DNA of 64,000 bases from Antiquaquibacter oligotrophicus (GTDB lineage Bacteria > Actinomycetota > Actinomycetes > Actinomycetales > Microbacteriaceae). The stretch covers positions 1,426,001 through 1,490,000 of the forward strand of contig NZ_CP085036.1 of NCBI RefSeq assembly GCF_020535405.1, written 5' to 3'. The position numbers were made by a program, and so were the translations under genes. Under the pieces are notes generated by a model, which worked only from the letters and a program-made list of their open reading frames with translations, did not search any database and was not told the DNA's origin. Of the stretch, positions 38,838 through 57,169 are shown piece after piece. Positions within the stretch are counted from its first letter, which is position 1. Each line of letters starts with the position of its first letter.

Positions 38838-38879
38838 AACCCCCGTGCGCCGCAGAGGCGGCGGCGCACCAGCTAGCGC

Positions 38880-38952
38880 GGGGCCTTAGCTCAATTGGTA
38901 GAGCGCCTGCTTTGCAAGCAGGAGGTCAGGAGTTCGATTCTCCTAGGCTCCA
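38880..38952 (+). tRNA. tRNA-Ala (TGC anticodon)
   Basis: 73 nt form a cloverleaf: acceptor ggggcct with aggctcc, D-arm gctc/gagc, anticodon arm cctgc/gcagg with loop TTTGCAA, T-arm aggag/ctcct, and discriminator A. CCA is not encoded. Confidence 0.97.
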
Positions 38953-38953
38953 C

Positions 38954-38994
38954 AAATGCAATGAACCCCGCCGCAGGTGGGGTTCATTGCATTT
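38954..38994 (+). terminator. Terminator hairpin after tRNA-Ala
   Basis: aaatgcaatgaacccc (38954-38969) and ggggttcattgcattt (38979-38994) form a perfect 16-bp stem with a 9-base loop, ending in a short T-run on either strand. The rest of the gap to 39240 contains only a possible promoter for the next gene (TGACCC at 39184, TATTCT at 39207). Confidence 0.9.
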
Positions 38995-39240
38995 AATCGT
39001 GAACTGCGAATCGAGTGGTACCTCCGAGTAGCCCGTCACTCGACCTCTTCTCCGGAGCATCCCGAATCGCACCCGCGTGACTCCGCGGATGTTGGTGTGG
39101 CGGAAGTGACTCGAACCCAAAAGCTCCGGAAAAGAGCTCGATGGAAGTGGTCGGTGCGCGGGGCATTCGAGCGAGAACAGAGGTGACCCGCTCTCGCGTG
39201 CGCCGCTATTCTGATGCCAACGCCGGAAGGGAGCCCGAGA

Positions 39241-40068
39241 ATGGCCGAGCGTAAGAAGACCACAAAGAGGGTCGTTCGTGTCGAACCGACGACGAGCCGT
39301 GGGGGTTCCGGTGGTTCGGATGCTTCGGAGCCGGCATCCGGCTGGAAGCCGACACCGGAAGCGAAGAGCAAGGCTCTCACCTACCGCATCATCGCGATCG
39401 TGCTCTGGGTACTCGCTATCGGCGGTGAAGCTTTCGAGATTTTCTGGGTGCTTCGGCAGTCGCCGCCGAACATGTGGATCCTCATCGGTGGGCTCGTGGT
39501 GATTGCGGGCCTCGCGATCGGTGGGTCGCTGTTGTGGAAGCAGGCCAATCGTTTGGACCCGGCATCCCGTCAGGACTCCGTGCGGTTCTTCATTCAGAAC
39601 CAGCTCGGGGCGATCATCACCGTTGTTGCGTTCCTTCCCCTCATCATTCTGATTTTCCTGAACAAGGACATGAGTGGGTCGCAGAAGGGAATCGCCGGCG
39701 GTATCGCGATCGCACTCCTGCTGGTCGCCGGCTTCCTCGGCACGTCCATCAATCCCCCGTCGACGGAGCAGTATGACGCGGAGACGAACCAGGTGATCGA
39801 GATCACGGGCGAGAATCTCGTGTTCTGGACGAAATCCGGCAAGGTGTTCCACCTGTGCGAGGACGCATCGGCCGTGAACCTCGAGTCCGCGGACAACACG
39901 ATCTATTCCGGCACGGTGGCGGACGCGCACGCGGCGGGCAAGGACCGCTTGACGCTGCAGGTCGATCAGGAGATTAGACAGTGTGGGTTCGAGGCACCCG
40001 AGGATGATCCTGCCACCGTCGACTCCGATGTCGAGGAGCCCGCGCTCGAGGAGACGCCCGCCCCGTAA
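39241..40068 (+). CDS. Four-helix membrane protein of unknown function
   Basis: 275 residues from the ATG at 39241, preceded by aagggag. A basic cytoplasmic N-terminus (AERKKTTKRVVRVEPTTSRG) leads to four transmembrane helices (about 50-70, 80-102, 121-142 and 152-172). The C-terminal 100 residues form a soluble part with FWTKSGKVFHLCEDASAVN and an acidic Glu/Asp/Pro-rich end. Two Cys residues (in HLCED and RQCGF) could pair. I do not recognise the family. It is a single-gene unit between the tRNAs and the fucose locus. Confidence 0.8.
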   Translation: MAERKKTTKRVVRVEPTTSRGGSGGSDASEPASGWKPTPEAKSKALTYRIIAIVLWVLAIGGEAFEIFWVLRQSPPNMWILIGGLVVIAGLAIGGSLLWKQANRLDPASRQDSVRFFIQNQLGAIITVVAFLPLIILIFLNKDMSGSQKGIAGGIAIALLLVAGFLGTSINPPSTEQYDAETNQVIEITGENLVFWTKSGKVFHLCEDASAVNLESADNTIYSGTVADAHAAGKDRLTLQVDQEIRQCGFEAPEDDPATVDSDVEEPALEETPAP

Positions 40069-40095
40069 CACCACTTTCGGGGCATGTAACCGCTC

Positions 40096-40160
40096 ACATC
40101 GGATGAATTGCGGTGTCTGAGGCCTCTTTTCTTGACAAACCGGTGAATACCTAGTTTTCT
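40096..40160 (+). promoter_or_regulatory. Promoter region of the GH95 fucosidase gene with a TCGGAT element
   Basis: ACATCGGATGA (40096-40106) matches the element found at the other fucose-locus promoters. A clear -35 (TTGACA, 40132-40137) follows; the -10 at 17 bases (ttttct) is weak. The inverted repeat tttct-ggc-tagaaa lies just downstream and could be a further operator. Confidence 0.45.
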
Positions 40161-40225
40161 GGCTAGAAATCATCGGAGGTTTAGCCTCCGTCCCCGCATG
40201 CCCTCACCGTGGAGGTCCCTCGACA

Positions 40226-43200
40226 ATGACGTCACCCCGCTCACTGGCGCGACTAGCGGTCGCGCTCACCGTTTCTGCCGCTCTCGTCTCCACAGGGGCG
40301 ATTTCTGCAACGGCCGCGCCTGCCGCGGTCGCACTCGATGCCGCTGCAATTCCTGAGATCGGAGGTGACACCTCGACCATCTGGTTCGATGAACCCCTCA
40401 ACACGAGCGCCGGTGATCTCCAGCGCGAATGGGAGGACCGAGCCCTACCGATCGGTAACGGGGCGCTCGGCGCGACGGTCTTCGGCACGGTCGCGACCGA
40501 GCAGATCCAGTTCAACGAGAAGACCCTGTGGACCGGCGGCCCCGGCGCCCAGGGCGGGTACAACTACGGCATCAACGGCAACAAGGAGCAGGCGATCGCG
40601 GATCTGCAGGAGCAGATCTGGCAGACCGGTGCCGTGACTCCCTCCGCTGCCGCGGCCGCACTGGGTGCCCCCAAGCAGAACTTTGGTTCGTACCAGACCT
40701 TCGGTGACCTGATGCTGGAGACCGGCGCATCCGGAACCCCCACCGACTACCGGCGGGTTCTCGATCTCGACACCGCCAAGGTGACCACGAGCTACACGCT
40801 GGGTGGTGTCCACTATGTTCGCGAGTACTTCGTGAGTGCAGCGGACAACACCCTCGTCGTGCGCCTCACCGCCGACCAGGCCGGTGCGATCGATGTGACC
40901 GCGCGTGTCCAGGTTCCCGGCGGTCGGAGCAATGTCGTGCAGACCTCCTCGAACGGACGCATGACCACGAGCGGAACGCTCAGCAACAACGGACTGCGCT
41001 GGGAGACCCAGGTGCAGGTGCTCAACGAGGGCGGCTCTCGCTCCGACATCTCGAACGGTCGCGTTCAGGTGCAAGATGCAGATTCCGTCGTCTTCGTGTT
41101 GGGTGCGGCGACGGATTACGCGGGCGACTTCGCGAACGACTATCGCAGCGGCGTCAACCCCGCCACGATCGTCACCCCGACGGTGACGGATGCCGCGGCT
41201 AAGAGCTTCGACGAGTTGTACGAGAACCACCTCGCCGACTACTCGGCGCTCTTCGACCGCGTCGACCTGGACCTCGACGCGACTCTCCCGTCGGTTCCGA
41301 CCGATGTCCTTCTCGACGGCTACAAGGCCCGCTCCTTGAGCGCGGCCGAGGAGCGCGGGCTCGAGCAGCTGTACTTCGAGTACGGCCGCTACCTGCTCAT
41401 CTCCTCGTCGCGCGGCGGATCGCTCCCGGCCAACCTGCAGGGTGTGTGGAACCGGAGCAACAACCCGCCGTGGGATGCCGACTACCACGTGAACATCAAC
41501 CTGCAGATGAACTACTGGCCGGCCGAGAGCACGAACCTCTCCGAGACTACCGAGCCGCTCTTCGACTACGTCGACTCGATGGTTCCCGCTGGCGAGCTCG
41601 CGGCGACCGAGATCTTCGGCAACGACGGATGGGTCGTCGGTAACGAGACCAACCCGTACGGCTTCAACGGTCTGCACAACTACGCGGAGTCCTTCTGGAT
41701 GCCCGACGCGGCAGCGTGGCTGGCGCTCCACTACTGGGAGCATTACCTGTTCACGGGTGACGAGGAGTTCTTGCGCGAGCGTGCGTACCCGATGTTCCAG
41801 TCGATCGCCGAGTTCTGGTTCGACGAGCTCGTGGAGCGCCCCGGCACGGACGAACTCGTCGTATCGCCGAGCTTCTCGCCCGAGCAGGGACCGTTCACGG
41901 CAGGCACGGCCATGTCGCAGCAGATCGTGACGCAGCTCTTCCAGATGACGAAGGAGGCGAGCACGATCCTCGGTGACGAGGACCAGGCGTTTGTCGCCCA
42001 GGTGGACTCGGTTCTCGCGAACCTCGAGCCGGGGCTCAACGTGGGTAGTTGGGGCCAGATCATGGAGTGGACCCCTGAACAGCCGCTCGACAACCCGAAC
42101 AACACCCACCGTCACGTGAGTCAGTTGTTCGCGCTGTTCCCCGCCGATGACATCAGCGCCACGAGTTCACCGGAGCTTGCGGCGGCCGCTGAGACGAGCC
42201 TCAACGCTCGCGGCGACGGCGGCACCGGGTGGAGCAAGGCGTGGAAGATCAACTTCTGGGCTCGCCTCCTCGACGGCGACCGCTCGCACAAGCTGCTCGA
42301 GGAGTTGCTGCGCGGCAGCACACTCGACAACCTGTGGGACGACCACCCTCCGTTCCAGATCGACGGCAACTTCGGTGCGACCTCCGGTATCGCCGAGATG
42401 CTGCTCCAGAGCCAGGACGGAATTGTCGACGTGCTCCCCGCGCTTCCGACGGCGTGGCCGAACGGTTCGTACACGGGCCTGAAGGCTCGCGGCAACGTCG
42501 AAGTTTCGGCGACATGGGAGGCGGGAAGCGCCCAGTCGATCCAGGTGACGCCGGCGGAGAGTGGCGAGCTGCGTGTTCGCAGCGCCAGCCTCGCGCCCGG
42601 GCTGTTCGGACTGGTCGACGGCGACGGCACCCCGGTGGAGTTCGAGATCGACGCCGACGGCGCTGTGGTCTTCGACGCGATTGGCGGAGAGACGTACACG
42701 GCGGCGGCGGATGTTTTCCTCGAAGTCAGCGCTCCGGCTCAGGCTGCAACGGGTGACGACATCGAGGTGGACGTGACCGTGCGTGCCATCGGAGCACCCG
42801 TGGAGGGGGCATCCGTTTCGATCGCTGTTCCCACGCTCCAGGTGGACGGGCTGGACAACTGGTCGGCGTCACCCGCGACGTTCGCGGTACCCGCGCTCGC
42901 CGTCGGGCAGTCGCACACCGAGACGATCGCCGTACATGTCGGTCCGGGTGGCGAGTCACGCCAGTCGGAGATTTCGGCGACACTCACCTCCGGTGAGACA
43001 GTTCTGTCGAAGTCCACGATCGTGAACGTGCGCCCACCGAGCCTGTGCACACCGGCTTCGGGCACCGCGCCGCTGCTCGCGTGGGACCTCGGCAACACAA
43101 CCGACAACGATTCGGGCTGGCCCTATGAGGTCACCGGCACGGGCGGAAGTGTCGCAGCCGACGGACCCAGCGGCTCGTCCCAGCGTCTCGAAAACACCGC

Positions 43201-45247
43201 GTTCGTGCGTACCGCGCAGAATGTCGAGGTTGGTTGGCTCTACGAGTCGACGTGGGCCATCGAGTTCAAGTCCGATACTGCGCGCACGGGTTACAGCCGA
43301 CTGTTCGACGCACGACCCCCGGGAGGCGGCGGTGACGCCGATGGCCTCGTCATCGACATCGCGGCGAACAATACGTTGCGCATCATCACGGCCGGTCAGA
43401 ACTCCGGCACCGACATCCAGCTCCCCGCGAACACGTGGCACAACCTCGTTGTGAGCTACGCGGAGAACGGTGTGGTGACGGTGTACCTCAACGGTCAACT
43501 GCGGGCGACACTGTCGTTCTCGGATTCCGGCATCAACGGATGTGGCGAGACCAGGGTCCGTGTCGGCGCCAATAACGCCGGGGGCGAAAGACTGCTCGGC
43601 TGGGTGGACCGCGTTGCGGTGTTCCCGTACGCGCTGACCCCGGCCGAAATCGCCGACTGGCAGACGGTTGCGGGACTCGTGTCGGATGAACCGCCGACCT
43701 GTCCCGCCCTTGAGGGCGACTCCGCGCTCTTCGCGTGGGACCTCGGCACGAACCCCATCGCAGATGCGTCTGGCAACGGCCTCGTACCGACCCTGTCGGG
43801 ACCGGGGGGAACGACTCCTGGAGTAAGCGGCGACGCTCAGCGCTTCGACGGCAACACGCAAGTGCGGATGCCAACGACAGTGCAGTGGGGTACCGGCGAC
43901 GAGTTCTCGGTCGCGGCCGAGGTCTACATCGAGCCGGGTCAGTCGTCGTACCGTCGCATCCTCCAGGTGCGGCCGACAACGGAATCCGACTCGCTCGGTC
44001 TCGTGGTCGACCTGAACCCGTCGGGCAACCTGCGAGTTCTGGGCGCCGGAGCCGGACACACAACCTCTGCGACCATGCCGTCAGGCGAATGGTTCGATTT
44101 GGTTGTTGTCTTCGGCGCGGGCGGCACCGTATCGGTGAGTGTCAACGGCGCCGTGGTTTCGACGCTCTCCGTGCCCGCAGCGCTCGACTTCTGCGACCCG
44201 CAGACGATCATCGTCGGCGCGAACCTCGGTGGTGGTGAGCGTCTTGTCGGCGCCATCGATCGCATCGCGGTCTTCCCCTTCTCTCTCACACCGGAGGAGG
44301 TCACGAGCTGGCAGGACCTCGTGTTCGAGCCGGTGGAGCCGGGAGTTGAGGTCGATCGGGTTGCCGGTGCCGACCGCTACGAGGTCGCCGTGAACATCTC
44401 GCAGGGCGCCTACCCCGAGACCGCTCCTGTGGTGTACGTCGCCAGCGGACTCAACTACCCGGATGCTCTATCGGCCGGTCCGGCCGCAGCCCACGAGGGC
44501 GGCCCGCTGCTGCTCGTGCGTCAGGATGAGGTCCCCGGCGTGATCGCCAGCGAGATCGCACGACTGGATCCGGCGAAGATCGTGATCGTCGGTGGAACCG
44601 CATCGGTGTCGGAGGGTGTGTTCAACTCCCTCTCGGCGATGGCGGACGAAACGGTTCGAATCGCGGGTGCGAACCGGTACGAGGCATCCCGTAATGTCGC
44701 CGAATATGCGTTCGGAGATGCGGACGTGCCGCTCGTCTACGTCGCGACCGGCGAGAAGTTCCCGGACGCGTTGGCCGCAGGCGGTGCCGCTGGATCGAAG
44801 GATGCCCCAGTTGTGCTCGTGCGCGGATCGGATACACAACTCGATGGCGCTACCGAGGCACTGCTCGAGTCGTTCGGAACAACCGACACGCGAGTGCTGG
44901 GTGGTGAGGCGTCGGTGACGCCCGCGCTGTTCGCCGACATCAACTCGATGACGACAGCCGTGCGGTTGGGTGGACCCGACCGGTACGAGGCGGCACGGGC
45001 GATCAACGCCGACGCGTTCGACAGCGCCGACCGCGCCTTCATCGCGACGGGGCTGAACTTCCCCGACGCGCTGGCGGGCTCGGCGTGGGCGGCTGCGGCC
45101 GGAGCGCCGATGTACGTTGTGCCCGGCACGTGCATCACGCAGGGCATCCTCTCGGATCTCGACTCGCTCGGGGTCTCGCAGGTCACCCTGCTCGGAGGGG
45201 AGGCATCTCTGAGCCCGAACGTGTTCGCGCTCACGCCCTGCCCGTAG
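40226..45247 (+). CDS. Secreted GH95 alpha-L-fucosidase with LamG modules and CWB2 anchor
   Basis: 1,673 residues. A signal peptide (1 to about 31, ending ISATAAPAA) is followed by a GH95 catalytic region (about 45-805) that begins PIGNGALGATVFGTV. The GH95 catalytic set is in place: N423 and N425 in NINLQMNYWPAE, E553 in SFSPEQGPF and D713 in FQIDGNFGATSGI. Then come a CARDB/NEW3-like beta-sandwich (about 835-940), two LamG/concanavalin-like modules (about 942-1150 and 1160-1365) starting with AWDLG, and three CWB2 cell-wall-binding repeats (about 1375-1673). GH95 enzymes remove alpha-1,2-linked L-fucose, or rarely L-galactose, by inversion. The surface enzyme would feed the import and catabolic genes that follow. 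A cgtggaggtccc ribosome-binding site precedes the ATG. Confidence 0.92.
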   Translation: MTSPRSLARLAVALTVSAALVSTGAISATAAPAAVALDAAAIPEIGGDTSTIWFDEPLNTSAGDLQREWEDRALPIGNGALGATVFGTVATEQIQFNEKTLWTGGPGAQGGYNYGINGNKEQAIADLQEQIWQTGAVTPSAAAAALGAPKQNFGSYQTFGDLMLETGASGTPTDYRRVLDLDTAKVTTSYTLGGVHYVREYFVSAADNTLVVRLTADQAGAIDVTARVQVPGGRSNVVQTSSNGRMTTSGTLSNNGLRWETQVQVLNEGGSRSDISNGRVQVQDADSVVFVLGAATDYAGDFANDYRSGVNPATIVTPTVTDAAAKSFDELYENHLADYSALFDRVDLDLDATLPSVPTDVLLDGYKARSLSAAEERGLEQLYFEYGRYLLISSSRGGSLPANLQGVWNRSNNPPWDADYHVNINLQMNYWPAESTNLSETTEPLFDYVDSMVPAGELAATEIFGNDGWVVGNETNPYGFNGLHNYAESFWMPDAAAWLALHYWEHYLFTGDEEFLRERAYPMFQSIAEFWFDELVERPGTDELVVSPSFSPEQGPFTAGTAMSQQIVTQLFQMTKEASTILGDEDQAFVAQVDSVLANLEPGLNVGSWGQIMEWTPEQPLDNPNNTHRHVSQLFALFPADDISATSSPELAAAAETSLNARGDGGTGWSKAWKINFWARLLDGDRSHKLLEELLRGSTLDNLWDDHPPFQIDGNFGATSGIAEMLLQSQDGIVDVLPALPTAWPNGSYTGLKARGNVEVSATWEAGSAQSIQVTPAESGELRVRSASLAPGLFGLVDGDGTPVEFEIDADGAVVFDAIGGETYTAAADVFLEVSAPAQAATGDDIEVDVTVRAIGAPVEGASVSIAVPTLQVDGLDNWSASPATFAVPALAVGQSHTETIAVHVGPGGESRQSEISATLTSGETVLSKSTIVNVRPPSLCTPASGTAPLLAWDLGNTTDNDSGWPYEVTGTGGSVAADGPSGSSQRLENTAFVRTAQNVEVGWLYESTWAIEFKSDTARTGYSRLFDARPPGGGGDADGLVIDIAANNTLRIITAGQNSGTDIQLPANTWHNLVVSYAENGVVTVYLNGQLRATLSFSDSGINGCGETRVRVGANNAGGERLLGWVDRVAVFPYALTPAEIADWQTVAGLVSDEPPTCPALEGDSALFAWDLGTNPIADASGNGLVPTLSGPGGTTPGVSGDAQRFDGNTQVRMPTTVQWGTGDEFSVAAEVYIEPGQSSYRRILQVRPTTESDSLGLVVDLNPSGNLRVLGAGAGHTTSATMPSGEWFDLVVVFGAGGTVSVSVNGAVVSTLSVPAALDFCDPQTIIVGANLGGGERLVGAIDRIAVFPFSLTPEEVTSWQDLVFEPVEPGVEVDRVAGADRYEVAVNISQGAYPETAPVVYVASGLNYPDALSAGPAAAHEGGPLLLVRQDEVPGVIASEIARLDPAKIVIVGGTASVSEGVFNSLSAMADETVRIAGANRYEASRNVAEYAFGDADVPLVYVATGEKFPDALAAGGAAGSKDAPVVLVRGSDTQLDGATEALLESFGTTDTRVLGGEASVTPALFADINSMTTAVRLGGPDRYEAARAINADAFDSADRAFIATGLNFPDALAGSAWAAAAGAPMYVVPGTCITQGILSDLDSLGVSQVTLLGGEASLSPNVFALTPCP

Positions 45248-45265
45248 GAGCACATCGCACCATCA

Positions 45266-45306
45266 GGCCGCCGCGGCCGTCGCACACCACGACGACCGCG
45301 GCGGTC
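45266..45306 (+). terminator. Hairpin after the GH95 gene
   Basis: ggccgccgcggccgtcg and cgacgaccgcggcggtc form a stem of about 15 bp with few mismatches, starting 18 bases after the stop. There is no T-run. Confidence 0.6.
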
Positions 45307-45355
45307 GCCGGTGTTCGCGCCACCGCAACAACCGAGATTGACACAGGATAGGTAG

Positions 45356-46594
45356 ATGGTCACCAGACAGTTCCCCCAGCCGAAGGCGCTTTTGGAACTC
45401 ATGCAGTTCAAGAAACCGACGCTCGACGCCCGGAAGCGCAGGCTCGACGCGGCGCTGACCATCTACGACCTTCGGGCTATCGCCGCCCGTCGAACCCCGC
45501 GCGCGGCGTTCGACTACACCGATGGCGCCGCGGAGGGGGAACTCTCGCTGGCGCGGGCGCGCCAGGCGTTCGAGGACATCGAGTTTCACCCGGACATCCT
45601 TCGCGACGTGAGCGAACTCGACACCACGACCACCGTGCTGGGCGGCACGTCGACGCTGCCGTTCGGTATCGCGCCGACCGGATTCACACGACTCATGCAG
45701 ACGGAGGGGGAGATCGCCGGCGCAGGCGCGGCGGCAGCGGCGGGCATCCCCTTCACACTCTCCACGCTCGGCACGACATCGATCGAGGCCGTCAGGGCGG
45801 CCAATCCGCACGGGCGCAACTGGTTTCAGCTCTACGTCATGCGCCAGCGGGAAATCTCGTACGGTCTCGTCGAGCGCGCGGCCGCCGCGGGCTTCGACAC
45901 CCTCATGTTCACGGTCGACACCCCCGTTGCCGGGGCTCGACTGCGAGACAAACGCAACGGATTCTCGATCCCCCCGGCCTTGACGATGGGCACGATCGTC
46001 AATGCGATCCCCCGCCCCTGGTGGTGGTTCGACTTCCTCACCACCCCGCCACTCGAGTTCGCCTCGCTCTCCTCGACGGGGGGAACCGTCGGGGAACTAC
46101 TCGACTCCGCGATGGACCCGTCGATCAACTTCACCGACCTCGAGATCATCCGCGACATGTGGCCGGGCAAGATTGTGGTCAAGGGAGTACAGAACGTCGC
46201 CGATTCCGTCGAGCTCGCTCGCCGCGGTGTGGACGGCATCCTCCTGTCCAACCACGGCGGTCGACAGCTGGACAGGGCTCCGATTCCGTTCCACCTGCTG
46301 CCCGAGGTAGTTCGCGAGGTCGGGAGCGACGTCGAGGTCATGGTGGACACGGGCATCATGAACGGCGCGGATGTTGTGGCATCCATCGCGCTCGGCGCGA
46401 AATTCACCCTTATCGGGCGCGCTTACCTCTACGGGCTCATGGCCGGTGGACGACCGGGGGTGGATCGTGCCATCCAGATCCTCGCCGTCGAGGTCGCGCG
46501 CACGATGAAGCTCCTCGGTGTTCGCTCCGTCGAAGAGCTCGAGCCTCGTCACGTCACCCAGCTGCAGAGATTGATCCCCCGCGAGGCGCGCTGA
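45356..46594 (+). CDS. lldD: FMN-dependent alpha-hydroxy-acid dehydrogenase/oxidase (L-lactate type)
   Basis: 412 residues, the size of LldD and mandelate dehydrogenase. FMN-binding TIM-barrel motifs are [28 protein letters not shown] and WFQLYV, and the catalytic His is in [16 protein letters not shown] with [20 protein letters not shown] after it. These enzymes oxidise L-lactate (or another L-2-hydroxy acid) to the keto acid. The fucose route encoded nearby releases one L-lactate per fucose, so lactate oxidation is the fitting role. The ATG has a weak aggataggtag site. It lies 33 bases before the GntR regulator gene. Confidence 0.88.
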
Positions 46595-46602
46595 ACCGCG
46601 TG

Positions 46603-46621
46603 TTAGCGCTAAAGATATGAT
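46603..46621 (+). promoter_or_regulatory. Operator and leaderless -10 before the GntR gene
   Basis: The perfect 10-bp palindrome TTAGCGCTAA (46603-46612) is followed by TATGAT (46616-46621), which ends 6 nt before the ATG at 46628. This is compatible with autoregulation of a leaderless message. Confidence 0.6.
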
Positions 46622-46627
46622 GTTCTT

Positions 46628-47326
46628 ATGGCGGTTACCGACGAGGCGATCCTCAAGATCAAGGGGATGATCATCCGCGGCGAGCTCGGTCCGGGCGACC
46701 GTCTCCCGCCAGAGAAGGAGCTCAGCGAGCACCTCGGCCTCTCCCGAAGTTCGCTGCGCGAAGCCGTCAAAGCACTCGAGGTCATCAAGGTGCTGGACGT
46801 GCGGCGTGGCGACGGTACCTACGTTACGAGCCTCGACCCGCGCCTCCTCCTCGAAGCGATCTCGTTCGTTGTGGATCTCCACGATGACAACTCGATCCTT
46901 GAACTTTTTGCCGTGCGTCGAATCCTCGAGCCTGCCGCTGCGGCGCTCGCCGCGACCCGAATGTCTCCGGAGGCCGTCGAGGGTCTGCGTGAACAGATCG
47001 GATCCGTGGACAGTCACACCGACGTCGAGGGGCTTGTCGCCCACGACATCGAGTTTCACGCCGCCATCGCGGCACTCTCCGGCAACGGCTATCTCGCCAC
47101 CCTCATCGAATCGCTTTCCGGTGGAACCATTCGGGCTCGAGTGTGGCGAGGCCTCACCCAGGAAAACGCCATCGAGAGAACCCTCGCCGAGCACCGTTCG
47201 ATCGTCGAGGCGCTGGCGATCGGGGATGCCCGACTCGCGGAGTCGCTCAGCATCGTGCACGTCTCCGGTGTGGAGAACTGGCTTCGCGCATGGAGCGACG
47301 AAAAGGCGGACATCCCCTCCGTGTAG
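46628..47326 (+). CDS. GntR-family (FadR subfamily) regulator, LldR-like
   Basis: 232 residues. The winged helix is typical: IIRGELGPGDRLPPEKELSE and LGLSRSSLREAVKALEV with the wing VRRGDGTYVT. The C-terminal FCD domain has the metal-binding helices (ELFAVRRILEP, DIEFHAAIAALSGN, EHRSIVEAL). Regulators of this subfamily often respond to lactate or other hydroxy and sugar acids. It lies directly after the lactate dehydrogenase gene, so an LldR role is the simple reading; an alternative ligand is a fuconate pathway acid. The 3' end overlaps a bidirectional terminator. Confidence 0.85.
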   Translation: MAVTDEAILKIKGMIIRGELGPGDRLPPEKELSEHLGLSRSSLREAVKALEVIKVLDVRRGDGTYVTSLDPRLLLEAISFVVDLHDDNSILELFAVRRILEPAAAALAATRMSPEAVEGLREQIGSVDSHTDVEGLVAHDIEFHAAIAALSGNGYLATLIESLSGGTIRARVWRGLTQENAIERTLAEHRSIVEALAIGDARLAESLSIVHVSGVENWLRAWSDEKADIPSV

Positions 47327-47340
47327 AGGGAATGTCCGCC
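47305..47340. terminator. Bidirectional terminator between the GntR gene and the fucose operon
   Basis: ggcggacatcccct (47305-47318) pairs with agggaatgtccgcc (47327-47340) with one mismatch; the loop contains the GntR stop. It serves both converging transcripts. Confidence 0.8.
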
Positions 47341-47360
47341 CTGTGTCGAGCTGACGAGCC

Positions 47361-48341
47361 TTACTCGTAGAGCACGGCCGCGATGGTCGGGTCGTCGATG
47401 TTGGTCGAGTCGTACCAGTAGAAGCCCGTGTCGATCGTCGCGGGCAGCGTCTCGCCGTTGATCGCCTCGACGGCCGCCTTCACGGTCTCGTACCCGATGC
47501 CGACGGGGTTCTGCGTGATCGCACCGAGCATGAGGCCGTCACGAATCGCGTCGAGCTGCGCCTTGCCGGAGTCGAAGCCGACGACCGCGAGAGCATCGGG
47601 CGAAAGACCCAGCTCCTTGACGGCCTGGACAACACCGATCGCCGAACCCTCGTTGGTGCCGTAGATGCCCTTGAGGTCGGGGTTGGCCGAGATGATCGCC
47701 TTGGCGAGGTCGGCCGACTTCGCCTGGTCGCCACCGCCGTACTGCACGTCGACGATCTCGACGTTCGGGGCGTTCTCCTCGATGTACTCGACGAAGCCGT
47801 CGCGACGCTGCTGACCGGTGAGCGAGGTCTGGTCGTGTGCGACGACGGCGATCTTGCCCTCCTCGCCGATGGCCTCGACCATGTGCTTGGCGGCCTCAGC
47901 GGCAGCGGCAAGGTTGTCGGTCGATGCAGTGGTCACCGGGATGTCACTGTCGACACCCGAGTCGAAGGCGACGACCGGGATGCCGGAATCGGAGGCCTGC
48001 TGCAGGAGGGGACCTGCGGCCTGGCTGTCGAGAGCCGCGAAGCCGATGGCGGCGGGGTTCTTGTCGAGCGCCGTCTGCAGCATCTGGATCTGCTGGTCGA
48101 CGTCGGCCTCGGTGTCGGGGCCCTCGAAGGTGATCTCAACATCGAACTCCTCCGCAGCCTGCTCGGCCCCGGCGCGTACGGCCTGCCAGAACTGGTGCTG
48201 GAAGCCCTTCGAGATGATGGCGATGTACGGCTTCTCGCCGTCGCCGCCACCGGCTTCGGGGGTCGCGCCTCCAGCGCAACCCGTGATCAATGCAGCGGTC
48301 GCGGCCATTGCGATCGCCGCGCCAAACAGTCGTTTCTTCAT
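47361..48341 (-). CDS. Sugar ABC transporter substrate-binding lipoprotein
   Basis: 326 residues with a lipoprotein signal (MKKRLFGAAIAMAATAALIT, then GC as the lipobox end, Cys 22) and a type 1 periplasmic-binding fold of the ribose/galactose group (PYIAIISKGFQHQFWQAVRAG, QIQMLQTALDKNPAAIGFAA, GIYGTNEGSAIGVVQAVKE). It would capture the sugar outside the membrane for the permease and ATPase encoded upstream in the operon. L-Fucose as ligand is inferred from the linked catabolic genes. It is the last gene, separated from the permease by 88 bases, and has its own cagggag ribosome-binding site. Confidence 0.88.
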   Translation of the reverse strand: MKKRLFGAAIAMAATAALITGCAGGATPEAGGGDGEKPYIAIISKGFQHQFWQAVRAGAEQAAEEFDVEITFEGPDTEADVDQQIQMLQTALDKNPAAIGFAALDSQAAGPLLQQASDSGIPVVAFDSGVDSDIPVTTASTDNLAAAAEAAKHMVEAIGEEGKIAVVAHDQTSLTGQQRRDGFVEYIEENAPNVEIVDVQYGGGDQAKSADLAKAIISANPDLKGIYGTNEGSAIGVVQAVKELGLSPDALAVVGFDSGKAQLDAIRDGLMLGAITQNPVGIGYETVKAAVEAINGETLPATIDTGFYWYDSTNIDDPTIAAVLYE

Positions 48342-48429
48342 TGATAACTCCCTGTGATTGGTGTGGTGCTTTTCTGGGGGTACGGGGCCGACGGGCGGCC
48401 CGCACGTCTGGGGTACCGCGCTGGTTCGC

Positions 48430-49412
48430 CTAGGCGGACCTCCTGCGCAGCATGTCGAGGTAGACGGCGATGAGGATGACGCAGCCCACCGCGACGGACT
48501 GCCATTCCTGCGGCACCGAGATGATGCGAAGGCCGTTGGTGAGCACGGCCATAATGAGGGCACCGATGACGGTTCCGACGATGGAACCCTTGCCGCCCTG
48601 CAGCGAAGTACCGCCGATGACGACGGCCGCGATGGCCTCGAGCTCGAGTCCCATGCCGCCCGTGGGCTGTGCGGAGCTCAGCCGCGATGCCGACAGGACG
48701 CCAGCGAGCCCGACGAAGAGTCCCGACAACGTGTAGATGATGATCTTCCACTTGCGAACGTTGACGCCGGACAACTCGGTTGCGGCCTCGTTGCTCCCGA
48801 TGGAGAACGCGTACCGGCCGACGATCGTCTTCGACAGAATGATCGCCGAGACGATGATCACCGCGATAAACACCGCGACACCGAGCGGGAACCGTGTTCC
48901 GGGCAGGATCGAGAGGTTCATGATCGACTGGAAGTCGGGGTGGTTCGGAAAGTAGATGGGCTTCGTGCCGGAGATGACGAGCGAGAGACCCGAAGCGATC
49001 AGCATCATGCCGAGGGTCGCGATAAACGGTGGGATGCCGAGGATCGACACATTGAATCCGTTGATGAACCCGATGATGCCGCCGAAGATGACGGCTCCGA
49101 GAACACCCGCCCACAACGGCCAACCCCAGTAGGTGAGGAAGACGCCCGTCATAACGCCGCACAGAATCATCCCGGTGCCGATCGAGAGGTCGATGCCACC
49201 CGTGATGATCACAAACGTCGTGCCGAGAGCGAGGATGCCCGTCACTGTCGCCGCGGTGAGCACACTCACGATGTTGTTGGCGGTGAAGAAGTGCGGGCTC
49301 AGGATCGAGAAGACGATCACGATCGCGATGAGACTCGCGAAGGCGAGCAGCTGTTGGAGCGAGTTACGAGCCAGCGAGAACAGACTCGAGGTGCGGGCGG
49401 GGGCGGGCGTGC

Positions 49413-49416
<4 letters not shown>
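48430..49416 (-). CDS. Sugar ABC transporter permease (RbsC type)
   Basis: 328 residues with 8-10 hydrophobic helices. The BPD_transp_2 family signatures are GTTFVIITGGIDLSIGTGM, GIPPFIATLGMMLIASGLSL, GSNEAATELSGVNVRKWK and EAIAAVVIGGTSLQGGKGSI with its EAA-like loop. The ATG at 49416 overlaps the ATPase stop by 4 bases; the longer open frame upstream lies inside the ATPase gene. It forms the membrane channel of the importer. Confidence 0.92.
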
Positions 49417-50947
<1,531 letters not shown>

Positions 50948-50951
<4 letters not shown>

Positions 50952-51802
50952 CGTGCGACCTCCAAGGTGCCGTAGACGTTCGCCGCGGTTCCGCCGAGCA
51001 CGGCCGCGCGCTCCGAGTCCGACAGGGTGACCACAAGGGTGAGGATCGGCTCGATGATCTCGGCATAGGTGCGGCCACTCACGGGCCAATCGCTCCCCCA
51101 CATCAGTCGCGACGGGCCGAAGAGCTCGAGCGCGTCGTTCCACAGGGGTAGGAGGGTGGCCGCGCTGTAGCCAGCGGCGACCGCCGATCTCAGGCCCGAG
51201 AACTTCGCCACGGTGTTGGGGCGAGCGGCGACGGCGGCGAGGCTCCGACGCCACGACTGCCGCGCGGCCCAATCCGTTGGCGGTTTCGCGAGATGGTCGA
51301 TAACGACGGTGAGGTCGTCGATGTCGCTCGCGAGTTCCGCAGCGGCGTCGAGGTGATGGGGCCAGGCATCCGGCACATCGAAGGTGAGGCCGCGGGCGGC
51401 GACCGAGCGAAGGCTCGCCCGCACGGCGGGGAGTCGAAGGAAATCGGCTCGGGGGTCGTCGTGGACGAGGTGACGGATGCCCCGCAGCACGTGCGCGTCG
51501 GCGAGGGCATCCAGTTGCCCCACCGCGACGGACTCGTCGTCGAGCTGAACCCACCCGACAACACCCGCGACCCAGTCGTGTGCGGCGGCCACCTCGAGGA
51601 GATATGCGGTGTCCGCCGGGGAGTCGGCGGCTTGTACGAGGATCACCCCGTCGATGTGCTGATCGACTAGCGCGCCTTCGATCCGCTCGGGCGGGAAGCT
51701 CGAGTAAAGGTCGCCCGACTCTGGACGAAGCCACGTGTACACCTCGGGATCGAGATCCCAGAGGTGCAGGTGCGCGTCGATGCGCGGGGTGGTGAGGCTC
51801 AT
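50948..51802 (-). CDS. L-fuconolactonase (amidohydrolase family)
   Basis: 284 residues of the COG3618 type, predicted TIM-barrel lactonases. The metal-binding start is RIDAHLHLWDLDPEVYTWL, then LRGIRHLVHDDP, VIDHLAKPP and LMWGSDWPVSGRTYAEII. Relatives in fucose clusters hydrolyse L-fucono-1,5(1,4)-lactone to L-fuconate. The gene is flanked by the dehydrogenase that makes the lactone and the transporter, with 4-base overlaps on both sides, which supports the assignment. Confidence 0.88.
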
Positions 51803-52755
51803 GCTGCCACGAGCTCCTCAGATTTGAGGGCCGCCCACAGGTCATCGGGCACCGGTTCGTGGAGCCGCGCGACACTCTGGAGAAGCTGTTCGGGTGTGCT
51901 TCCGCCCACCACAACCGAGCGGACCGAGGCGGAGCGGAGCGGGAAGTGCAGGGCGGCGGTGGGAAGGCTCACGCCGAAGTCGCGGCACGTCGCGGCAATC
52001 CTCTGCACCCGGTCCAGTCGCTCGGGGGAGACCGGCTCATAGTCGAAAAAGGACTCCGTCGACGGGTTGTCGCGTGCGGTGAGCCCGCCGTTAAAGATGG
52101 CAGCCGCGACGATGCCGACCCCGTTCTGCTCGCACGCGGGGAGGAGGTCCTCCGCGGAGGCGTCGTCGGCGATCGTGTAACGTCCGGCGACCATGTGGAC
52201 GTCGGCAAGCCCCGTCTCGGTCGCGGCGATGAGCGATTCGGTGACCATCGACCCGAAGCCGACGGCATCCACCATTCCTTCGTCACGCAGCCGCGCCGCT
52301 GCCGGCAGAGCCTCGCGGATGCCCTGCCCGAGGTCGTGGCGCTCGGGATCGTGCACGTACAGAATGTCCACGCGATCCAGGCCGAGCCTCTCGAGGGACT
52401 CCTCGAGGCTCACGCGCACGCCGTCGGCCGTCAGATCCCACACTCGATGCACGTCGGCCGGCACGTGGAAGTCGTTGTCGAGGTCGAGTTCGCCGGAGAA
52501 ATGGGGTGAGGGCCGCAACAGCCGGCCCACCTTGGTCGACACGATGTACTCGTCTCGGGGGCGAGTGGCCAGGAAGGCGCCGAGACGGCGTTCCGACAGG
52601 CCGAGCCCGTAGTGCGGGGCGGTGTCGAAGTACCGGATGCCCGCATCCCACGCCGCGTCGAGGATCGCCCATGCTTCCTCGTCGCTCAGGGGGCGGCGCA
52701 GGTTCCCCAGGTTCGCTGCGCCGTAGCCGAGCGAATCGATCGAGACCTCAACCAT
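51799..52755 (-). CDS. Aldo/keto reductase, probable L-fucose dehydrogenase
   Basis: 318 residues with the AKR tetrad in place: [17 protein letters not shown] (D and Y), [10 protein letters not shown] (K) and [11 protein letters not shown] (H), and the cofactor-binding end [11 protein letters not shown]. It resembles D-threo-aldose 1-dehydrogenase, which oxidises L-fucose to L-fucono-lactone with NAD(P)+. Between fuconate dehydratase and fuconolactonase this activity is the one needed. The start overlaps the dehydratase stop by 8 bases. Confidence 0.88.
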
Positions 52756-54031
52756 GACTCAACGCAAACTCGAGACGGCTCGCGTCGAGCATCTCGGCTC
52801 CAGAGCCGGCGACCGTCGGCGCCCAGTAGCGGCCCGCCCGGACATCGACGGGTGTCACGAAGTGCTCGTGCAGGTGATCGACGAACTCGATCATGCGTCC
52901 CTCAGTCGAGCCGGACACGGCGACGAAGTCGAAGTAGGAGAGGTGCTGCACCATTTCGCACAGACCGACACCGCCAGCGTGGGGGCACACCGGAACACCG
53001 AATCGCGCCGCGAGAAGGAGGATGGCGATGTTTTCGTTGACACCTGCGACTCGGGTTGCGTCGATCTGTGCAACCTGAAGCGCCTGCGACTGCAGGAACT
53101 GCTTGAACATGACGCGATTGGCCATGTGTTCTCCGGTCGCGACACGAATCGGCGAGATCGCGCGTGAGATCGCGGCATGCGCCACAACGTCATCGGGATT
53201 GGTGGGTTCCTCGACCCAGGCCAGGTCGTAGGCCGCCAGCTGAGAGATCCATCCGATCGCCTCGCTGACCTCCCAGCGCTGGTTGGCATCCACGGCGATT
53301 CCTATGTCGGGGCCTACGGTCTCTCGCGCCAGTGCGAGTCGCCGAACATCGTCATCGAGACTAGCGCCGACCTTGAGCTTGATTTGCTGAAACCCGTCCG
53401 CGACGGCCTCACGCGCGAGACGCACGAGCTTGTCGTCGTCGTAACCGAGCCAACCGGGGGTTGTCGTGTAGGCGGGGTACCCCGTGCCGAGGAGCTCCGC
53501 CTGGCGTTCGGCGCGCCCTGCTTCGGCACGGCGAAGTATGTCGAGCGCGTCTTCGCGAGTGAGGGCATCCGTCAGATATCGGAAGTCGACGAGGTCGACG
53601 ATCTCTTCCGGTGACATTCCGGACAGGAGCTGCCACAGAGGTAGCCCCGCGCGCTTGGCTTTGAGATCCCACAGCGCGTTGATCACGGCTCCGATCGCCA
53701 TGTGCATGACGCCCTTTTCGGGTCCGAGCCATCGCAACTGCGAGTCGTAGACGAGCCAGCGCCAGGTCTCTCCCATGGAGCCGAGCAGGTCTTCGACGTT
53801 GCGCCCGAGCAGGTAGGGCTCGAGGGCGCGAATCGCTGCTTCCTGCACGTCGTTGCCGCGACCGATGGTGAAGACGAAGCCGTGACCGCTGAGGCCGTCG
53901 GGGGAGTCGGTGCGGATCCGCACGTACGCCGCTGAATAGTCTGGATCCGGGTTCATCGCGTCCGAGCCGTCCAGCATGGTCGAGGTGGGAAACCTGACAT
54001 CACTGGTATCGATCGCGATGATTGTGCTCAC
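52748..54031 (-). CDS. L-fuconate dehydratase (enolase superfamily)
   Basis: 427 residues from a GTG at 54031, which has aaaggaggc in front; the open frame continues upstream through the promoter and is not coding. It is a mandelate-racemase-type enolase: the base KLKVG near residue 220, metal ligands in [16 protein letters not shown] and ATGEHMANR, and the [19 protein letters not shown] segment typical of L-fuconate dehydratase. It dehydrates L-fuconate to 2-keto-3-deoxy-L-fuconate. It is the first gene of the six-gene minus-strand operon. Confidence 0.92.
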
Positions 54032-54055
54032 GGGTGCCTCCTTTGGCGCACGGTC

Positions 54056-54085
54056 AGCATAGACATCGGATGTATCGAGTGTCAA
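54056..54085 (-). promoter_or_regulatory. Promoter of the fucose catabolic operon with operator in the spacer
   Basis: On the minus strand the -35 is TTGACA (54080-54085) and the -10 is TATGCT (54056-54061), with an 18-bp spacer. The spacer contains the perfect palindrome ACATC-c-GATGT (54063-54073), so a regulator bound there would block RNA polymerase. Confidence 0.8.
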
Positions 54086-54126
54086 CGTCGCGATCGTTCT
54101 CGTATTTTGCCCAGATCGCTCGCGGT

Positions 54127-54150
54127 CATCCGCTATATAGTCGGATGTTA
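54127..54150 (+). promoter_or_regulatory. Promoter/operator before the FAH-family hydrolase gene
   Basis: catccg (54127-54132) and cggatg (54142-54147) form an inverted repeat around TATATAGT, which is a good -10 candidate (TATAGT, 54136-54141). The right arm is part of AGTCGGATGTTA (54139-54150), the element shared with the other fucose promoters. No convincing -35 is seen. Confidence 0.6.
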
Positions 54151-54184
54151 TCTCACGGCCGCCGTCACTCTCGAAGGAAACCAC

Positions 54185-55033
54185 ATGAAGCTCGTCCACC
54201 TCGGTCCCGTCGGTCAGGAGAAGCCCGCGCTCGCCGTGGACAACACGTACTTCGACCTCTCGGAACTCACGTCCGCTATCGACGGGGCGTTCCTCGCGGC
54301 GGACGGGGTCCAGCGCGCCGCCGAGGCCCACGCCGCTGGCACACTCCCCGTCATCGCTGACGCGGCGCAATTGCGCATCGGGTCGCCGATCTCGCGGCCG
54401 GGTTCCATCGTCTGTATCGGGATGAACTACGCGGCCCATGCCGCCGAATCGGGGTCCGCCCCTCCCTCCGTGCCCATCATCTTCCTCAAGACGGCGAACA
54501 CCGTGGCGGGACCGAACGACACGGTCGCCATCCCGCGTCGCAGCGTGAAGACCGACTGGGAGGTGGAGCTCGGCGTCGTGATCGGAAAGCGCGCGTCGTA
54601 CCTCGATGACCCGACACAGAGCATCGACCACATCGCGGGCTTTGTCACGGCGAATGATCTCTCCGAGCGCACCTTCCAGCTCGAGGAGTCGGGTGGTCAG
54701 TGGTCGAAGGGCAAGAGCGCTGCAGGCTTCAGTCCCCTCGGGCCCTGGCTCGTCACGCCCGACGAGTTCGACTACCGCTCGGCGCGACTGCGGTCATGGG
54801 TCAACGGGGAGCCCCGACAGGATTCCACGGCGGCCGACCTCATCTTCGATGTCGACTTCCTCGTTTGGCACCTCAGCCAGTACATGGTGCTCGACCCGGG
54901 AGACGTCATCCTCACGGGAACCCCCGAGGGTGTCGCCCTCTCTGGCCGTTTCCCCTACCTGAAGGCCGGGGATGTGTGCGAGATCGAGATCGACGGACTC
55001 GGTCGCCAACGACAGGAGTTCATCGATGCCTGA
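54185..55033 (+). CDS. 2,4-diketo-3-deoxy-L-fuconate hydrolase (FAH family)
   Basis: 282 residues from the ATG at 54185, with cgaaggaaa before it. It is a fumarylacetoacetate-hydrolase fold: [14 protein letters not shown], the metal ligands in [17 protein letters not shown]-like [24 protein letters not shown] and [11 protein letters not shown]. In fucose clusters this family cleaves 2,4-diketo-3-deoxy-L-fuconate to pyruvate and L-lactate. It overlaps the SDR gene by 8 bases, so the last two steps of the route are made together. It is divergent from the dehydratase operon. Confidence 0.88.
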
Positions 55034-55784
55034 CGCCACCGAATTCGAGGGGCTTGTCGCCATTGTCACGGGAGGAGCCCAGGGCATCGGCGCGGCCATC
55101 GCCGATCGACTCGCCGCTGGCGGCGCCCGGGTCGCGATCCTCGACCTGAATCCCGGCAGCGCCGATCATGTCTGGGTCGAGGCGGATCTCGGCAACGAAG
55201 AGTCGGTCTCCTCCGCGGTGTCGACGGTCGTCGAAACCCTCGGTCGTCTGGACATCGTTGTCAACAACGCGGCGATCAGCGCGGCCGGCACCATCGAAGA
55301 CAACGACGATGAGACCTGGGCGCGCGTGTTGAGCGTCAACGTGACGGGGATTGCCCGGACGGCCAGAGCCGCCCTCCCCCACCTCCGCCAGTCTCCGTCC
55401 GCGGCAATCGTCAACCTCGGTTCGATCGTCGCGACTGCGGGGCTGCCCCAGCGCGCGCTTTATACGGCTGCCAAGGGAGCGGTGCTCGCACTCACGCGCG
55501 CCATGGCGGCTGACCACATTCAGGATGGTGTTCGCGTGAACTGCGTGAATCCCGGCACGGCAGACACCCCCTGGGTGGCCCGTCTCGTTGCGGCGGCGGA
55601 GGACCCCGTGGCGGAACGCACAGCGCTCGAGGCCCGTCAGCCGCACGGGCGGCTGGTGGCGCCGACCGAGATCGCCGACGCGGTTGCGTACCTCGCGAGC
55701 CCTCGCTCGGGTTCCACGAACGGCACGGCCCTCGCGGTCGACGGTGGGATGCAGGACCTGCGCCTGAGGCCGCGTTCTTCGTAA
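55026..55784 (+). CDS. SDR, probable 2-keto-3-deoxy-L-fuconate dehydrogenase
   Basis: 252 residues with the short-chain dehydrogenase motifs VTGGAQGIGAAIADRLA (NAD binding), NNAAIS, the catalytic Ser in VNLGSIVAT, YTAAKGAV (Tyr and Lys) and the C-terminal GGMQDLRL. It would oxidise the 4-hydroxyl of 2-keto-3-deoxy-L-fuconate with NAD+ to give the substrate of the hydrolase. The start at 55026 overlaps the hydrolase stop by 8 bases. Confidence 0.87.
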   Translation: MPDATEFEGLVAIVTGGAQGIGAAIADRLAAGGARVAILDLNPGSADHVWVEADLGNEESVSSAVSTVVETLGRLDIVVNNAAISAAGTIEDNDDETWARVLSVNVTGIARTARAALPHLRQSPSAAIVNLGSIVATAGLPQRALYTAAKGAVLALTRAMAADHIQDGVRVNCVNPGTADTPWVARLVAAAEDPVAERTALEARQPHGRLVAPTEIADAVAYLASPRSGSTNGTALAVDGGMQDLRLRPRSS

Positions 55785-55842
55785 GACATCAGATCCATTG
55801 GGCCGTCTGGGGGCTAGACGGGCCGCCATGTTCCCGGTTTCA

Positions 55843-55871
55843 TTGTAAACATCCGACTTCTGGGTTAGCAT
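55843..55871 (+). promoter_or_regulatory. Leaderless promoter of the ROK regulator with operator in the spacer
   Basis: TTGTAA (55843-55848) and TAGCAT (55866-55871) are separated by 17 bp, and the -10 ends 7 nt before the ATG at 55879. The spacer starts with ACATCCGAC (55849-55857), the complement of GTCGGATGT, the shared fucose element. Confidence 0.65.
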
Positions 55872-55878
55872 CCTCGCC

Positions 55879-57169
55879 ATGCCCGAGCAGACAAGCGCCA
55901 GAGTCGGCCTTGCCCCTGCGCGCGGGAAAAATCTCGACGAACTTCGCCGTAGCAATCTCTCTCTCGCCCTCGGCCTGATTCATCGGCGCGGTCGTCTCGC
56001 GCGGTCGGAGCTCACGCGAGAGCTTGGGCTGAACCGCTCCACGATCGCGGCGCTCGTCACCGAACTCGTCGCGAGGGGCCTCGCGGTCGAGAGTATGCCG
56101 ACCGCCACCGGGCACGTGGGCAGACCAAGCCTCACCATCACACCCAGCCAGTCCATCGCCGCCATCGCCGTGCGACCCGAGGTCGATGCCGTCACGATAG
56201 CGCTCGTCGGATTGGGTGGTCGCGTCGTACGAGAGGTGCGTTACGACACGTCGGGGGTGCCGAGCGCTCGCGAGGTGGCCACGATCGTGCGGGCCATCGT
56301 CGAAGGAATGGCCATCACAGAGTCGATGAGCTACGACATCCACGGGGTTGGCCTGGCGATCCCGGGCCTCGTTCGCGCATCCGACGGACTTGTCGTCTTC
56401 GCACCCCACCTCGGTTGGCGAGATGAACCGCTCGCGCGAAAGCTCGCCGAACAGACCGGCTTCGAGGTCAGTGCCGCCAACGACGCCCTGTGCGGGGCCA
56501 TCGCCGAGTTCACCTTCGGGGCCGGGCAGGGCGCGACCGACATGGTGTACCTCCACGGCGGGCCGAGCGGAATCGGGGGAGGGATCGTCGTGGACGGTTC
56601 GCTCGTGTCCGGTGCCCACGGCTACGCGGGTGAGCTCGGCCACACCCTCGTGAACAGCCTCGGTGCTCTCTGTCACTGCGGGGCGACCGGATGCCTCGAG
56701 GCCGAGGTGCGCCGAGAGCCTCTCCTCACGGCGGTCGGTCTCGACGGTGCTCACGCCGATTCGCTGCGACCGGCCCTGCAGGCGGCGCTTGACGCCGGTA
56801 CCAGGCCGGATGTTCGCGGCTCTCGTCCGCGAACAGGCGACCATGCTCGCGATCGCCCTGCGTAACGCCGTCAACGCGTTCAATACGCGCAGGGTTGTGC
56901 TCGGCGGTTTCCTCGGCGATCTGTTTGCCCTCGACCCGGAGCCCTTCGAATCTCTGCGGTCCGGTACCCACCTCCTCGGTGCCCAGATGGGGATCGAGAT
57001 CGTCGAAGCACAACTGGGTCACTCCGGGGCGCTTCTCGGTGCGGCGGAACTGGTGTTCCGGCCGCTGCTCGACGACCCGACGATGATCGGCACGGCCGAG
57101 CGCCGGGGTGCAGCGGTCAGCGAGGTGGTCCGTCTGCGCCGGCACGAGGAGTCCGAGCTCGCAGTGTGA
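55879..57169 (+). pseudogene. ROK-family transcriptional regulator, frameshifted
   Basis: Read in one frame the gene gives 328 codons and stops at 56865: an N-terminal winged helix (ELTRELGLNRSTIAALVTEL), the ROK sugar-kinase-like fold (VGLAIPGLVRASDG, GGPSGIGGGIVVDG), and the ROK zinc motif CHCGATGCLEAEV. After about position 56800 the frame becomes Arg/Pro/Asp-rich, while the +1 frame carries on with a ROK-like C-terminus (MFAALVREQATMLAIALRN, RRVVLGGFLGD) to 57169. One base inserted or two deleted near 56790-56825 explains this. With the shift corrected the protein would be about 430 residues, the usual size of NagC/XylR-type ROK regulators. It is placed to control the fucose genes. A sequencing error is possible. 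Confidence 0.8.

Follow-up and report, generated by a model that had tools for sequence, protein, structure and literature searches.

Comparison with described L-fucose pathways

L-Fucose can be oxidized without phosphorylation along what is known as route 3, described for Xanthomonas campestris and Herbaspirillum huttiense, in which, according to passages of PMC11199699, a dehydrogenase, a lactonase, L-fuconate dehydratase (FucD), a short-chain dehydrogenase/reductase (SDR) and a hydrolase of the FAH family lead to pyruvate and L-lactate. These five enzymes have counterparts in a locus of Antiquaquibacter oligotrophicus (Microbacteriaceae), found in a 64,000-nucleotide stretch of its genome (NZ_CP085036.1, positions 1,426,001 to 1,490,000) that is referred to below as the window, with positions counted from its first letter. 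Membership of the locus in the published route 3 is well supported, and we consider it likely that the window holds a non-phosphorylating L-fucose locus equipped with a GH95 fucosidase, an importer and an L-lactate dehydrogenase (LldD) and controlled by a GntR regulator through an operator. Compared with route 3 as given in those passages, the GH95 enzyme, the ribose-type ABC importer, LldD and GntR are additions, and the block showed no mutarotase.

An actinobacterium of the Acidimicrobiia has, by annotation, a dehydrogenase, a lactonase and FucD, and in passages of PMC12263773 its pathway is read as yielding pyruvate and lactate, as in the window, although this source names GH29, not GH95, as its fucosidase family. 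L-Rhamnose regulons with lldD or lldEFG (passages of PMC3870299) offer another parallel, with deoxyhexose catabolism run on to pyruvate via L-lactate dehydrogenase as proposed here, an extension that the same source already proposed for certain Actinomycetales; those regulons, however, combine RhaR with the RhaEW aldolase/dehydrogenase, whereas the window has a FucD-based oxidative route. Oxidative L-fucose loci with ABC importers and predicted FucR sites were likewise reconstructed from the genomes of Halomonas and others, and passages of PMC5507952 name no LldD for the Halomonas-type loci, while the window has one. To these precedents the present analysis adds a predicted operator together with its regulator; it also shows that many genomes of the family have the pathway, and it gives statistical support to LldD being a repeated, though minority, neighbor of the fucose genes.

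Gene content and pathway enzymes

The locus extends from a tRNA-Ala gene to ~55.8 kb of the window, and every gene that an earlier note, made from the letters of the sequence, had named there is an open frame at its place. Ten genes of the block were scanned with Pfam and each scored above the cut-off of its expected family, while the SDR was judged by NCBIfam and PDB; the gene set that the note had proposed for oxidizing L-fucose to pyruvate and L-lactate without phosphorylation was borne out. The start codons of the importer's binding protein, the ATPase, FucD and FAH were chosen from translations. The family identity of each gene can be read from these matches, and from sequence we infer every function, the substrate specificities of the enzymes included.

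The firmest identity among the enzymes of the block is that of FucD (52748..54031, minus strand), a member of the enolase superfamily with 619 bits over 424 residues to the L-fuconate dehydratase of X. campestris (1YEY/2HNE in PDB), against 504 bits to human ENOSF1 (4A35) and ~71 bits to rhamnonate dehydratase; its KLK and PHAGG motifs align with those of the X. campestris enzyme. Given 619 against ~71 bits, we also rejected L-rhamnose as the main substrate. From 54031 downward on the minus strand, with overlaps of a few bases, FucD is followed by an aldo-keto reductase (AKR; 51799..52755; PF00248, 171 bits), proposed to be L-fucose 1-dehydrogenase, an L-fucono-1,5-lactonase-like amidohydrolase (50948..51802; PF04909, 125 bits) and the ATPase and permease of the importer, and then by its binding protein. 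The AKR would oxidize L-fucose to L-fucono-1,5-lactone, the amidohydrolase would open the lactone to L-fuconate, and FucD would convert the latter to 2-keto-3-deoxyfuconate (KDF). Candidates for both enzymes of the upper steps of route 3 are present; for the amidohydrolase the fuconolactonase model is the best in NCBIfam (FuconLaconase), yet at 169 bits it stays below the cut-off of 400, and in PDB the amidohydrolase is nearest to 4DLF (86 bits).

Divergent from FucD, across a gap of 153 bases, lie FAH (54185..55033, plus strand; PF01557, 218 bits), the proposed 2,4-diketo-3-deoxyfuconate hydrolase, and the SDR (55026..55784, plus strand), whose frames overlap by 8 bases. The SDR would be KDF 4-dehydrogenase, oxidizing C4, and FAH would cleave the resulting diketo acid into pyruvate and L-lactate. 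FAH is closest to enzymes of the rhamnose pathway, with 2,4-didehydro-3-deoxy-L-rhamnonate hydrolase as its best NCBIfam model (255 bits, cut-off 500) and L-2,4-diketo-3-deoxyrhamnonate hydrolase (8GSR, 201 bits) as its nearest PDB relative; the fucose and rhamnose routes converge on this same diketo acid, which is hydrolyzed to pyruvate and L-lactate, according to passages of PMC11199699. Neither NCBIfam nor PDB distinguishes the SDR from other SDRs or gives it a specific match, and its role is assigned because of its position beside FAH. As in route 3, the SDR and the FAH hydrolase are present in place of a KDF aldolase, and no aldolase family appeared among the Pfam matches of the scanned proteins of the block. 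For L-fucose isomerase, the sole match in the genome lies below the curated cut-off (26.4 versus 29.3 bits).

A conserved predicted operator and its putative regulator

The gap between FucD and FAH contains a perfect palindrome, ACATCGGATGT (54063..54073), the sole exact copy of ACATC-N-GATGT in the window and a predicted operator of the GntR protein. It lies inside the spacer of a promoter-like element of the FucD unit (54056..54085, minus strand; TTGACA-18-TATGCT, 10/12 matches), which is the joint best of four such sites in 40050-57400, where shuffled sequences gave 1.6 expected. A protein bound between the -35 and -10 boxes at this point would block the polymerase.

The palindrome was taken from the window and then tested on 80 FucD loci from named genomes. 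These loci, the best ones among at least 598 matches, are mutually related, and the identity limits used for homologues in them differ by gene. In 49 of the 80 an exact site was found in the 260 bp preceding FucD, against 4 for the next best of the 1024 possible five-base half-sites, and exact sites numbered 60 in the 20.8 kb upstream of FucD but 18 in the remaining 1.574 Mb. At a distance of up to 120 bp from the gene start and with no more than one mismatch, sites precede FucD in 61/80 loci, FAH in 49/57 (counts that are not independent, as a divergent promoter is common to both genes in many loci), GntR in 24/62 and the lactonase in 11/60, compared with 2/30 for the ATPase, 1/64 for the SDR, 0/71 for AKR, 0/30 for the binding protein and 1.2% of random windows. 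On these counts the sites fall where transcription units begin, that of GntR itself included.

The regulator (46628..47326, plus strand; PF00392 and PF07729) belongs to the GntR/FCD family, and we propose it as the repressor of the fucose pathway. A homologue (at least 45% identity over 200 residues) is present in 62 of the 80 FucD loci, while LldD is present in three; the earlier note had tied this gene to lactate, a role that we rejected on these counts and on the placement of the operator. The protein would presumably bind ACATC-N-GATGT, repress the units that begin with FucD and FAH, perhaps also GH95, and respond to an effector. Upstream of GH95, 130 bp before its start, lies ACATCGGATGA (40096..40106), the only other site in the window within one mismatch of the palindrome, although random 120-bp windows contain a site this good at a rate of ~1.2%, which makes it suggestive only; a two-mismatch site is found at 46613, directly before GntR. 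We found no report of the ACATC-N-GATGT operator among the open-licence papers searched; its letters do occur in seven of them, those listed being by title on Toxoplasma, gut bacteria and salmon. The main text of PMC4494728, retrieved by a search for GntR and fucose regulons, does not contain the word "fucose".

The LldD-like enzyme and its linkage to the fucose genes

Next to GntR, an FMN-dependent 2-hydroxy-acid dehydrogenase (45356..46594, plus strand) is the sole strong FMN_dh match in the 2.9-Mb genome (PF01070, 417 bits; the next are 42, 23 and 20). Its NCBIfam scores are 305 bits to L-lactate dehydrogenase PRK11197 (cut-off 376), 273 to the LldD model (550) and 177 to L-lactate oxidase (645.5), and, as it scores below the curated LldD cut-offs, we call it LldD-like. 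Among single-domain PDB entries the closest are (S)-mandelate dehydrogenases, at 236-251 bits, and no single-domain lactate oxidase exceeds 160 bits; the two entries that head the list, at 269 and 253 bits, are lactate oxidases built in tandem, whose scores are sums. An insert at residues ~210-240, which we take to be a membrane segment, aligns with the full-length (S)-mandelate dehydrogenase 6BFG and is partly gapped against lactate oxidase 7F22. Because of these scores and the shared insert, a membrane-type dehydrogenase is a likelier identity than an oxidase, a correction to the earlier note, which had seen an L-lactate oxidase/dehydrogenase at the edge of the block. LldD would convert L-lactate to pyruvate and probably pass the electrons into the quinone pool. 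L-Lactate as its substrate is proposed largely from genomic context and is the weakest step of the explanation.

To this context belongs the distance between LldD and FAH in the family. Positions were printed for 144 of 280 genomes with LldD and 140 of 164 with FAH, which, with the A. oligotrophicus genome excluded, gave 67 genomes and 74 pairs. The two genes lie within 15 kb of each other in 5/67 genomes, against 0.63 expected under a uniform 3.5-Mb null (Poisson 5e-4), and within 5 kb in 4/67 (0.21 expected). Two of the five (G267 and G385) are from one genus, and a third (G310) has an LldD with one in-frame stop codon together with a 55% FAH and a 37% SDR. Outside the count, LldD of G316 lies ~2.7 kb from a 53% FAH.

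The arrangements differ. At the same tRNA-Ala site as in the window, a genus mate (G282, locus L148) has a small membrane protein (ORF284), LldD, FAH and SDR contiguous (82%, 84%, 77% and 81% identity); its stretch 11557-15258 has no match to FucD, the importer, GntR or GH95, and its genome has no FucD at E <= 1e-100. This block may be a remnant, or a lower pathway for another sugar acid. FAH, SDR and LldD are contiguous in a Curtobacterium metagenome-assembled genome (L051, where LldD ends after 74 residues at the end of the contig) and in L162 (G267). FucD and LldD adjoin in L161 (G385), LldD, FucD and AKR follow one another in L011, LldD and FucD are divergent in L076, and they lie a few kilobases apart in L163 (G130). 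The linkage of LldD with fucose genes is a recurrent but minority arrangement. In L161, positions 4064-13553 bring together GH95 (40%), ROK, FAH, SDR, lactonase, FucD and LldD; ACATC-N-GATGT was not found in this locus at up to one mismatch.

The proposed GH95 fucosidase and the importer

The GH95 alpha-L-fucosidase-like enzyme (40226..45247, plus strand) combines a catalytic domain (PF22124, 522.7 bits) with two LamG-like stretches (PF13385) and three CWB2 repeats (PF04122). Its N-terminus looks signal-like by eye. The earlier note had called it cell-wall anchored; binding to the wall stands, through CWB2 repeats, and "anchored" should be read in that sense, as such repeats bind the wall without a covalent link. 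Compared with the Bifidobacterium 1,2-alpha-L-fucosidase AfcA (2EAB), the catalytic domain and motifs are alike, while the LamG-like and CWB2 domains belong to the window protein. HVNIN, SPEQGP and HPPFQIDGNFG align with AfcA, so that the enzyme retains both Asn residues of the catalytic pair as well as the regions SPEQGP and PFQIDGNFG, and the Glu and Asp of these motifs are presumably catalytic as well. The Asn pair of GH95 is named in passages of PMC4491172, which also proposed a Thr/His residue as a possible determinant of substrate. At this position the enzyme has His, as in AfcA, against Thr in the L-galactosidase 4UFC, but passages of PMC8245568 argue that the residue is not decisive, and on that evidence we dropped it as a test of substrate.

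The enzyme would be secreted, be held at the wall by its CWB2 repeats and free terminal L-fucose, which would then enter by the ribose-type ABC importer. The latter consists of a substrate-binding protein (47361..48341; PF13407, 210 bits), a permease (48430..49416; PF02653, 159 bits) and an ATPase with two ABC domains (49413..50951; PF00005, two stretches), all on the minus strand. The best NCBIfam model for the binding protein is a D-allose one (129 bits, no cut-off reached) and that for the permease is ribose permease (239 bits, cut-off 398).

GH95 homologues occur in 63 of 378 family genomes, that of the window included; the eight other genus members listed yielded none. Fifty genomes have a GH95 as well as a FucD, and in 8 of these the two lie within 15 kb of each other (0.62 expected). 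A GH95 of at least 30% identity is found in 3 of the 80 FucD loci. In the eight linked genomes FucD is of a 57-62% type rather than the 70-80% type of the window, and for this reason the count supports a general linkage between fucosidase and fucose genes but not the arrangement of the window itself.

Distribution in the family and genus

The earlier note had thought the full set in this compact form, with a wall-anchored enzyme, unusual for a genome of the Microbacteriaceae type, but the distribution does not bear out rarity in the family: FucD (E <= 1e-100) is present in 145/398 family genomes and 50/85 genera, and FAH (E <= 1e-85) in 165/398. The neighborhood itself is conserved, the FucD-AKR and the divergent FAH-SDR pairs recurring in many related loci; besides GntR, the 80 FucD loci contain homologues of AKR (71), SDR (64), lactonase (61), FAH (57) and the ABC parts (30-31). 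The recurrence of FucD, AKR, FAH, SDR and GntR together in many of them ruled out chance clustering.

In the genus of the window FucD was found in 16/27 genomes, six of the window's type (its own and five that share 71-80% identity); the other ten belong to a 56-58% type. Four loci of the latter type (L155-L158, from G346, G394, G197 and G372; FucD 56-57%) have no window-type FAH or SDR within the 19 kb fetched. The only annotated one, L158, has an RraA-like aldolase, a second enolase-family dehydratase, a lactonase, AKR and a BPD_transp_1/SBP_bac_1 importer beside FucD, and these loci possibly follow another lower route. The type does not always go without FAH, however, as in G398 a 58% FucD and a 57% FAH are 1.7 kb apart, and in another genus L159 has a 57% FucD with FAH, SDR and AKR.

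Weighing the alternatives

Several observations weigh against the explanation of the window as an L-fucose locus with its own lactate disposal. No curated NCBIfam cut-off is reached by the lactonase, AKR, FAH, LldD or FucD, nor, among the 25 matches listed, by the SDR, and FucD has no fuconate dehydratase match there, its best being L-talarate/galactarate dehydratase (148 bits, cut-off 500). Fucose mutarotase, which belongs to the published pathway (passages of PMC11199699), is absent from the matches of the block, no genome search for it having been made. Among single-domain PDB entries LldD stands nearest to (S)-mandelate dehydrogenases, and it is near FucD in just three of the 80 loci. An exact operator was found in none of seven LldD-linked loci (L011, L051, L076, L148 and L161-L163) and a one-mismatch site in three (L011, L051 and L076), and the best GntR match in L161-L163 is only 26-29%, which argues against a shared regulon. 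The association of operator and GntR by locus is borderline (42/62 with GntR, 7/18 without; Fisher p = 0.052), part of which could be accounted for by GntR genes beyond the 10-kb flank, and many GntR homologues are named pyruvate dehydrogenase complex repressors by their sources. Finally, a strong GC-rich hairpin (45266-45306, in a 109-nucleotide gap with z = -3.5) could separate the transcription of GH95 from that of LldD; it is absent from the list of terminator-like sites found in the block scan. A broader reading would have one GntR/FCD protein and ACATC-N-GATGT govern oxidative L-fucose genes across Actinomycetota, in a regulon that here took in a wall-bound fucosidase and the sole LldD-family enzyme, so that fucose gives two pyruvates and the electrons of lactate go to the respiratory chain. 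Because the other LldD-adjoining loci are mostly without the operator, we find this plausible but lean slightly to doubt.

LldD might serve lactate use in general, its closeness to the fucose genes having no function. It is the only strong FMN_dh member of the genome (NAD-dependent enzymes and LutABC were not searched), and the loci in which LldD adjoins the pathway mostly lack the window's operator; the recurrent and variously arranged neighborhoods of LldD with FAH, SDR or FucD argue otherwise, and we think this unlikely. That LldD and GntR are together a separate lactate-use pair that borders the fucose genes by chance would agree with the hairpin, with the weak likeness of GntR to NanR (99 bits), LldR (92) and PdhR (83), all below cut-off, and with the 62/67 genomes in which the printed LldD and FAH are over 15 kb apart or on different contigs. 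It is quite improbable in view of the conservation of GntR, rather than LldD, in FucD loci and of an operator that precedes GntR, FucD and FAH. As for the sugar, the five best PDB matches of AKR are all L-galactose dehydrogenases, so L-galactose may also be a substrate. The main substrate could even be L-galactose (or D-arabinose) and L-fucose a secondary one, in which case the last step would yield pyruvate and L-glycerate (or glycolate) in place of L-lactate, and an alpha-L-galactosidase is among the GH95 members in passages of PMC4491172. We hold this to be quite improbable, given the similarity of FucD to L-fuconate dehydratase, the presence of LldD beside FAH/SDR in several genomes, which fits lactate, and the AfcA-type His of GH95 in place of the 4UFC Thr, a residue that is not decisive according to passages of PMC8245568.

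Genomic context

The locus adjoins gyrA (35606-38176, by eye) and, after it, tRNA-Ala (38880-38953), which is followed by the small membrane-type protein ORF284 (39214-40068, plus strand, by eye). The same tRNA-Ala site (38636-40068 in the window; loci L147-L154 and L160) was compared in nine genus mates, and only G282 has genes of the window directly after the tRNA. ORF284 adjoins the tRNA in G282, lies ~14 kb off in G316 and is unmatched in the stretches of the other seven; the position is possibly a variable site. After the LldD-FAH-SDR block of G282 comes a large protein, similar by eye to that of the gene at 63572 of the window. A copy on a known plasmid was rejected, as 11 plasmid records match and none covers 80% of the query.

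On the other side, the SDR is followed by a gene for a ROK-family regulator (55879..56865, plus strand), in which PF00480 is matched at profile positions 8-177 of 294 and the frame is broken near the 3' end; a plausible remainder of the protein lies in another frame, and both a decayed gene and a sequencing error are possible. Adjoining the fucose genes, positions 57325-63327 encode a 2000-residue protein with ThuA, glucose/sorbosone dehydrogenase, PKD, CBM6, GH43_C2-like and CWB2 domains.

Implications

The locus presents a fucose regulon that is near-complete and open to testing, in a large family of actinobacteria, and the predicted operator could help to recognize such operons in many genomes. 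Together with the proposal already made for rhamnose in passages of PMC3870299, it suggests that lactate disposal has been joined to deoxyhexose oxidation more than once.

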